From NCBI RefSeq assembly GCF_003725795.1, contig NZ_RBEE01000045.1, positions 62,001 to 126,000 of the forward strand: a DNA stretch of 64,000 nt. The letters are read 5' to 3'. This document shows, one piece after another, positions 7,945 through 10,214 of this stretch. The number at the start of each line of letters is the position of its first letter. Positions within the stretch are counted from its first letter, which is position 1. Made by a program: the position numbers and the translations under genes. This DNA comes from Pedobacter jejuensis (GTDB taxonomy: Bacteria; Bacteroidota; Bacteroidia; Sphingobacteriales; Sphingobacteriaceae). The notes beneath the pieces were generated by a model. The model saw only the letters and a program-made list of their open reading frames with translations, did no database searches and had not been told where the DNA came from.

Positions 7945-8163
7945 ATGGTATTAGCACAAGTAGAAAGCAGCAATCAAATTGCAATTATTATAATTATCGC
8001 AGCCATACTTTGGTTAGCTCTTATAATAATTGCATTGTATCATATTTCAAAAAATGCATCAATGGCATTTCCAGTAAAAGTAATTTGGTTTGTAATCATT
8101 TTACTGGCGCCATTTATAGGTTCATTGGTGTATCTCGTTTGGGGAAGAAATAAAAGTTTTTAA
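7945..8163 (+). CDS. Small PLDc_N-domain membrane protein
   Basis: This 72-residue protein has two membrane helices and the end motif of the PLDc_N family (W...ILLAPFIGSLVYLVWGR). In larger proteins this domain precedes phospholipase D/cardiolipin synthase catalytic domains; on its own it is common in Bacteroidota and its role is unknown. It follows the ABC exporter by 15 bp. Its stop codon borders the first unit of a long tandem repeat. Confidence 0.8.
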   Translation: MVLAQVESSNQIAIIIIIAAILWLALIIIALYHISKNASMAFPVKVIWFVIILLAPFIGSLVYLVWGRNKSF

Positions 8164-8196
8164 TTTTTTTGCCTTAAAGAACAGCCTTGAAAATTT

Positions 8197-8376
8197 GGAA
8201 AGCAATGACAGAAATACTTCGGTTTGTTTCTGCCCCGTTATTCCTCCAAGCGCTATGAAAAATAGCGGCTTTCCGTACTACCGGGTTTAGTTTGCAAGGT
8301 ATTTCGCTTTTTTTAACGTTTTGAATGGCAGACGTAAATAATTATGCTGGGCTGTGTTAATTAAACCTGACTGTAC
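8197..8376 (+). ncRNA. Candidate structured RNA, copy 1
   Basis: GGAAAGC (8197-8203) pairs with GCTTTCC (8268-8274) and encloses two hairpins: CAGAAA/TTTCTG (8209-8232) capped by a C(UUCG)G tetraloop, and CGCTAT/ATAGCG (8251-8267). Next, GTAC...CGGGTTTAG (8275-8290) pairs with TTAAACCTG...GTAC (8361-8376) as a second long-range helix. The UUCG loop occurs on the plus strand only, so that strand is preferred. That it is transcribed is inference. Confidence 0.45.
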
Positions 8377-8566
8377 GAAAATACTTTTTGCTGAACTAAC
8401 GCTTCATTTTTATTGCAGGAATTACCCAAAAAGATTGTAGGGAAGGCAGGATTGACATTAATCTTGCTACTGTAATTGCTTTTCAAATAATTTATATAGA
8501 ATTAACATTCGCTAGAAAACTACTTTTTAATACATCATTATCGTTTAATTTTTACCTTAAAGAATT

Positions 8567-8746
8567 GGAAAGCAATGACAGATATACTTCGGTTTGTTTC
8601 TGCCTCGTTATTCCTCCAAGCGCTATGAAAAATAGCGGCTTTCCGTACTACTGGGTTTAGTTTGCAAGGTATTTCGCTTTTTTTAACGTTTTGAAGGGCA
8701 AACGTAAATAATTATACTGAACTACGTTAATTAAACCTGACTGTAC
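8567..8746 (+). ncRNA. Candidate structured RNA, copy 2
   Basis: The same fold as the upstream copy: closing stem 8567-8573 with 8638-8644, the UUCG hairpin with one changed base giving a U-U mismatch, an unchanged CGCTAT/ATAGCG hairpin, and the long-range helix in which C-G has become U-G (still paired). The pairing regions are better conserved than the linkers. Confidence 0.45.
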
Positions 8747-8930
8747 GAAAATACTTTTTGCTGAACTAACGCTTCATTTTTATTGCAGGAATTACCCAAA
8801 AAGATTGTAGGGAAGGCAGGACTGACATTAATCTGAATACTGTAACTGCTTTTCAAATAATTAATATAGAATTACAATTTTGCTAGAAAAAAAGCTTTTA
8901 ATCCGTGATAACTAATCATGAGACACACAA

Positions 8931-10214
8931 CTAAATCTTACTCGTATGCTCGTTTATATCCTGCAAACTTAATTTCGTAAGTGATTTTGTTTTAAACCAG
9001 GTAATAAAAGCAATTCCAATTGTCATACTTCCGCCAAATACCACAGCAGGAACAGTGCGCATTAGTTTTGCAGTTAAGCCCGATTCAAATGCACCGATTT
9101 CATTTGAAGAACCGATAAACATACTATTTACTGCTGACACCCTTCCCCTCATTTCATCGGGCGTAAGCAATTGCATAATGGTAGAACGGATGATTACGCT
9201 CACGCTATCAAAAGAACCTTCTAAGAAAAGGAAAAATAGCGTTAAGTAAAAACTTTTTGATAGTCCGTAACAGATAATACTCAAACCAAAACCGGTTACT
9301 GCAATTAGTAGGTTTCGCCAAGGCTTATTCATTGGTGAAAATCTGGTCATGGCAAGCATGGTGATTACAGAACCTGCAGAAGCTGCAGCTCGCATAAAGC
9401 CTAAACCCTCCGGACCAACCTTTAAAATATCGTTCGCAAAAACCGGAAGCAAGGCAACCGCTCCACCAAAAAATACCGAGAATAAGTCCAAACTCATTGC
9501 CCAAACCATCATTTTGGTTTTAAACACAAATTGAATTCCTTCGGTTAAACTTTTTACAATTCCTTCTTTAGGTATAAAAGATGGCGGGTGAACATTCAGA
9601 AAGAAAATGCAAATCAGTGCGATAAAAATAAATGTGATGATAACGACATAAGTTACGGTTATCCCGAAGAAACCATAAATCAATCCTCCGGCTGCAGGAC
9701 CTAAAATGGAAGCCATTTGCCAGCTGGAACTACTCCAGGTGCTTGCATTTGGATACAACTCTTTAGGTAAAATTTGCGCCATGAGCGAAAAAGTTGCTGG
9801 TCCGAAAAAACCCCTAGCTAAACCAATACCGAAAACCATAGAGTACATAATTGGCACAATGTATCCAACCGGTACATATCTATGCATGTAAGTAGTTGTT
9901 ACCGCCAACATAATTAATGAGCACAGGAAAACACCAGAAAATATTTTTAATAGTAAGCCTCTTTTTTCACTTTTATCTGCAATGTAGCCGCCATACAAAG
10001 CAATTGTAATGGCAGGAATAGCTTCGCAAAGACCGATTAAGCCTAATGCCAATGGGTCTTTCGTTAAATGATAGATATAAATACCAAGTACAACAGCTTG
10101 CATTTGATAAGCAAACGTAAAGAAAAAGCGCATGCCGAGGTAAGACCTAAATTCTTTATAACGCAATGCTGCGTATGGGTCGGGTTTAGTTAAAATGGAT
10201 TTAGAATCTGCCAA
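8931..10214 (-). CDS. MFS transporter
   Basis: This is a 427-residue inner-membrane transporter with about twelve hydrophobic segments. The loop after helix 2 (GGYIADKSEKRGLLL) carries the family A motif, and the layout resembles the EntS/MFS_3 group, which contains enterobactin exporters and many uncharacterised drug exporters. The substrate is unknown. The start is a TTG: no ATG lies at the expected N-terminus (MADSKSILTKPDPYAALRYKEF), and a TAGTTTTG -7 element at 10232-10239 puts transcription onset just upstream. It reads toward the tandem repeat and stands alone. Confidence 0.88.
   Translation of the reverse strand: MADSKSILTKPDPYAALRYKEFRSYLGMRFFFTFAYQMQAVVLGIYIYHLTKDPLALGLIGLCEAIPAITIALYGGYIADKSEKRGLLLKIFSGVFLCSLIMLAVTTTYMHRYVPVGYIVPIMYSMVFGIGLARGFFGPATFSLMAQILPKELYPNASTWSSSSWQMASILGPAAGGLIYGFFGITVTYVVIITFIFIALICIFFLNVHPPSFIPKEGIVKSLTEGIQFVFKTKMMVWAMSLDLFSVFFGGAVALLPVFANDILKVGPEGLGFMRAAASAGSVITMLAMTRFSPMNKPWRNLLIAVTGFGLSIICYGLSKSFYLTLFFLFLEGSFDSVSVIIRSTIMQLLTPDEMRGRVSAVNSMFIGSSNEIGAFESGLTAKLMRTVPAVVFGGSMTIGIAFITWFKTKSLTKLSLQDINEHTSKI

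Follow-up and report, generated by a model that had tools for sequence, protein, structure and literature searches.

Organization of the Locus

The window (the whole 64,000-nt stretch of Pedobacter jejuensis DNA that was analyzed) carries a tandem non-coding array between a small PLDc_N-type gene and an MFS gene (Table 1). A segment of 300 nt (8185–8484) is repeated at 8555–8854 with 94% identity and a spacing of 370, confirming the two tandem copies described in an earlier sequence-only reading, and weaker direct-repeat similarity extends upstream to 8166/8549 and downstream to 8538/8909. On the plus strand, both copies out-folded dinucleotide shuffles (z of −3.0 and −2.3; the minus strand of copy 1 gave −1.25).

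An Rfam scan related the repeat to Flavo-1 (RF01705; E 2e-5), so that it is neither without a recognizable family nor the Pedo-repair motif, as had been suggested. The match covers the 3′ half of each copy and is full-length to the model, with scores of 36.3 and 36.6 bits for the two right units, under the RF01705 gathering score of 42. The 5′ halves were detected, in minus-strand orientation, by R1, a covariance model built from aligned family members over the full length of the unit. Hence two units in inverted, head-to-head orientation make up each 300-nt copy.

Table 1. Coordinates of the array, its units and the neighboring genes in the window.
Feature	Position	Strand	Remarks
Small PLDc_N-type gene	7945–8163	+	Upstream neighbor of the array
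Module 1 of the tandem array (inverted unit pair and flanks)	8166–8548		Direct repeats D1–D3; approximate ends
Left Flavo-1-type unit, module 1	8190–8294	-	R1 47.5 bits, E 4e-6; outside the training set
Terminal inverted repeat, left arm (left-unit tail)	8193–8211	+	Minimum-free-energy fold
Right Flavo-1-type unit, module 1	8357–8491	+	RF01705 36.3 bits, E 2.3e-5; R1 E 2e-16 (in the training set)
Terminal inverted repeat, right arm (right-unit tail)	8470–8488	+	Minimum-free-energy fold
Module 2 of the tandem array	8549–8909		Direct repeats D1–D3; approximate ends
Left Flavo-1-type unit, module 2	8560–8664	-	R1 28.9 bits, E 0.04 alone (outside the training set); 370 nt from its module 1 homologue
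Right Flavo-1-type unit, module 2	8727–8861	+	RF01705 36.6 bits, E 1.9e-5; R1 E 8e-17 (in the training set)
MFS gene	8931–10214	-	Other neighbor of the array

This arrangement accounts for the long-range pairing at the locus. The GGAAAGC/GCTTTCC pairing (8197–8203/8268–8274), previously read as a closing stem within each copy, forms in 65% of cells across 141 distinct members, and shuffles do as well. Since the units are inverted copies, the same bases pair between the two extremities of the dimer, where the tails of both units meet to form the long terminal stem (8193–8211/8470–8488). A second long-range helix that had been proposed (GTAC..GGGTTTAG / TTAAACC..GTAC) is a product of the same inversion of both units. 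The helix supported by our analysis is instead the hairpin inside each unit: counts of two-sided changes revealed strong compensatory change in this hairpin and none in the GGAAAGC/GCTTTCC stem. When the tandem copies were compared, the unit hairpins differed at 2 of 151 positions versus 14 of 141 in the tails and spacer (Fisher p 0.0013) and, with the downstream flank (16/41) pooled, 30 of 182 (Fisher p 8e-7), consistent with the earlier impression that linkers are richer in substitutions than helices.

BIMEs consist of inverted REPs arranged as tandem modules, and the name REPIN denotes an inverted doublet (PMC2817692, PMC3116915). The locus is probably a two-module BIME-like array, in which each module consists of one head-to-head Flavo-1-type unit pair with the tails pointing outward.

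Unit Anatomy and Relationship to Flavo-1

The anatomy of the unit, as worked out here, is near certain. In the aligned genome matches, the unit begins with a 5′ TTTAAACC, followed by an imperfect hairpin, GGACTG and a 3′ tail ending in TTGCTTTTCCAAA; it measures approximately 105–135 nt, with TTTAAACC and TTCCAAA as consensus ends. The unit thus exceeds the Rfam model, as the conserved 3′ tail lies outside it. The window units share with Flavo-1 a 5′ hairpin core and internal loops and differ in their sub-threshold scores, conserved 3′ tail, inverted pairs and tandem modules. Judging from sequence and model matches, the window unit is almost certainly a divergent, 3′-extended relative of Rfam Flavo-1.

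The consensus hairpin has conserved internal loops, and the same columns are kept in alignment A3. Both 3 × 3 internal loops are mostly G-N-A on either side, with a variable N. GNA/GNA loops form stable sheared G·A motifs in DNA and are found in RNA too; their conservation would suit RNA as much as DNA. A literature search on such loop motifs in DNA returned nothing useful.

Two further features of the units were observed. Several units (L066, L082, L129) carry a short motif near TTCGACAAGCTCAG in their hairpin loop, and this motif also occurs elsewhere in the genome. A second unit subtype (L122, L068, L069, L083) possesses an extra outer stem, GCGTTAA..GGATGGAAGCGGCATCC .. GGATACAGCGGACAGC ..AACGCC.

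Copy Number, Genomic Context and Distribution

The genome of the window contains 94 Flavo-1 matches, 47 of them above the gathering threshold. In a 683 kb background, chosen regardless of the family except that the window's contig was included, all 29 units were intergenic (intergenic sequence makes up 12.8% of the total), and their density extrapolates to ~200 units per genome. In each of two complete relatives, at least 140 were counted. The 18 intergenic regions holding these 29 units lie between codirectional (12), convergent (3) or divergent (3) genes. A wider set of 141 units included 4 that overlapped a called ORF.

Units occur on both strands. Neighboring units are arranged head-to-head (24 cases), directly (20) or tail-to-tail (8), with many tandem modules whose spacers are specific to the locus, and units lacking a partner are common. 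Loci between codirectional genes were biased toward the sense orientation (36 sense vs 14 antisense, 72% sense; p 0.003). No strand switch of units between replichores was visible, in GC skew data too noisy for a firm reading.

Across the genus, Flavo-1 matches were present in 88 of 145 genomes and undetected in 57, clustering by clade. At the MFS locus of relatives, both units were found in G001 and G011, a compact pair in G008, only the left unit in G007, only the right unit in G009 and G004, and none in the others, suggesting that the site is either ancient or used repeatedly, with its halves coming and going. Between close strains, no unit was seen to be gained or lost, and no target duplication was observed. 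Close matches were also found in Flavobacterium, Chryseobacterium and a Bacteroidota MAG.

Compensatory Changes in the Unit Hairpin

Among 141 distinct units, the hairpin was paired in 94% of cells and accumulated 445 two-sided changes, versus 111 in shuffles and 33–84 in slid controls, counts that lean toward this structure because the alignment was fitted to it. The changes were almost purely Watson–Crick: 14 pairs of the units comprised 1680 Watson–Crick, 10 G.T and 8 A.C cells, compared to 2283 Watson–Crick, 372 wobble (G.T) and 12 A.C cells for RNase P RNA sampled within that genus and class. Standard changes were one-sided versus two-sided in a ratio of 10 to 442 for the units and 153 to 335 for RNase P. 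Selection by score was checked as a cause of the low wobble in the units and was not responsible.

This near-purely Watson–Crick compensation would point to a DNA hairpin over an RNA. A TPP riboswitch set also had few wobbles (2 in 264) and few variable pairs, so the wobble argument is suggestive rather than decisive; RNase P served as a further wobble control. Template-switch copying between the arms would leave a pattern identical to that of selection on a DNA hairpin. With DNA folding parameters, one module 1 unit folded better than shuffles and its partner did not.

Nature of the Repeat and Alternative Explanations

Taken as a family, these units are probably a non-autonomous DNA repeat, dispersed through intergenic sequence and akin to REP/BIME or REPIN elements, and not an sRNA gene. 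The sequence-only reading had proposed a duplicated structured RNA rather than decayed coding DNA: a duplicated, structured, non-coding element that is not decayed coding DNA is indeed present, its assignment as a dedicated regulatory sRNA is disfavored, and another of the guesses made there, a non-autonomous element, fits the dispersed-repeat interpretation.

As in BIMEs and REPINs, we found alternating inverted palindromic units that are imperfect, intergenic and high in copy number, joined into inverted doublets and tandem modules with locus-specific spacers, and complementary changes are retained (PMC2817692, PMC3116915). The differences are the size of the unit (105–135 vs 20–40 nt) and its lack of a GTAG or CGTC tag and of a linked RAYT. 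REPs tagged with CGTC, known from Bacteroidetes among others, are likewise palindromic without a linked transposase (PMC3733652); their 8–9 bp stems, 4–5 base loops and CGTC tag have no counterpart here.

In the mechanism we envisage, single-stranded DNA or a cruciform would fold the unit into its hairpin, which a protein acting in trans may recognize, whether a transposase or a factor of replication, repair or the nucleoid. Copying within or between units would maintain the complementarity of the arms, and modules could be amplified locally.

The alternative that Flavo-1 is a true structured RNA (an sRNA or UTR element), with the window copies as divergent members acting in transcripts, appears unlikely. 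The strong covariation of the hairpin, the better-than-shuffled folding of the plus strand and the sense bias of the loci would all agree with it, and the original authors judged Flavo-1 to be “probably” RNA, and not cis-regulatory (PMC2864571). However, at least 94 copies per genome in tandem modules, inverted pairs that place the unit on both strands, and the near absence of G.U argue against such a function. Likewise, RNA-seq in F. psychrophilum revealed no consistent transcription of Flavo-1: hits faced transcribed regions in either orientation without distinction, and many lay elsewhere (PMC9723704).

It is improbable that the family is a REP/REPIN proper, mobilized by a RAYT to which the link was lost or has escaped notice. 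The BIME-like architecture speaks for it, as does the co-occurrence of RAYT and Flavo-1 in 145 genomes (69 with both, 55 with neither), a strong correlation that is nevertheless confounded by clade and was rejected as evidence. When the flanks of 48 RAYT loci were scanned, units were not enriched (4 in 167 kb, vs 29 in the 683 kb background), and no cognate RAYT flanked by units was found. Eight genomes with at least 20 matches, six of them more than 90% complete, had no RAYT hit at E 1e-10. REPs are characterized by a palindrome of 20–40 bp that bears a GTAG or CGTC tag, which is also absent from the unit. Lacking the GTAG tag and any enrichment at RAYT loci, these repeats fall outside the RAYT-linked REP family.

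One truncated Flavo-1-type unit (L059:735-839, G000:C6; E 0.0036) adjoins the only RAYT in the genome of the window, at the 3′ end of the gene (stop at 758), a placement that could favor a RAYT link; the RAYTs of relatives carry no such unit at their 3′ end. Inspected RAYT flanks bear other palindromes, which stands against that link; in relatives (L091–L108), RAYT genes of this genus are bordered by palindromes of a separate family, GCACACGCGGCACGCGTGCGCCAGCGAGGG and its variants, which appear to be REPs of their own.

The least probable explanation is a classical MITE, in which the two unit tails would be the terminal inverted repeats of a deleted DNA transposon: the element is short, non-coding, high-copy and intergenic, with terminal inverted repeats of ~19 bp once units are paired (Table 1), but single units are frequent, making the dimer optional, the conserved part and its compensatory change sit in the inner hairpin, and a limited search found no transposase with such ends.

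Beyond the dispersed-repeat interpretation of the window family, a tentative possibility is that Flavo-1 as a whole is no RNA family and constitutes a distinct class of Bacteroidota DNA hairpin repeats, defined by GNA/GNA loops and REPIN-like inverted dimers and amplified by a non-RAYT enzyme. No text classing Flavo-1 as a BIME/REPIN-like repeat was found in a search that reached few subscription journals. One review counts Flavo-1 with the most abundant sRNA families known (PMC9029176). Should it be a DNA repeat, many of the sRNA genes in sRNA catalogues and in Rfam-based Bacteroidota annotations would be false, and Bacteroidota would have a BIME-like element of their own. The near absence of wobble could also serve, given wider calibration, as a simple candidate test of DNA hairpin versus RNA among Rfam motifs.

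Candidate Mobilizers and Searches of Mobile-Element Collections

A search for a recurrent gene neighboring the units, as a possible mobilizer, identified none of note. Four-helix-bundle (PF05635) genes were considered and rejected: the genome has 11, and the nearest unit is at least 0.8 kb away. By eye, no target-site duplication was seen at the array. A search of plasmid and phage collections gave no match. Two IMG/VR viral contigs (L295, L296), whose phage nature is putative, carry Flavo-1 matches over the threshold.
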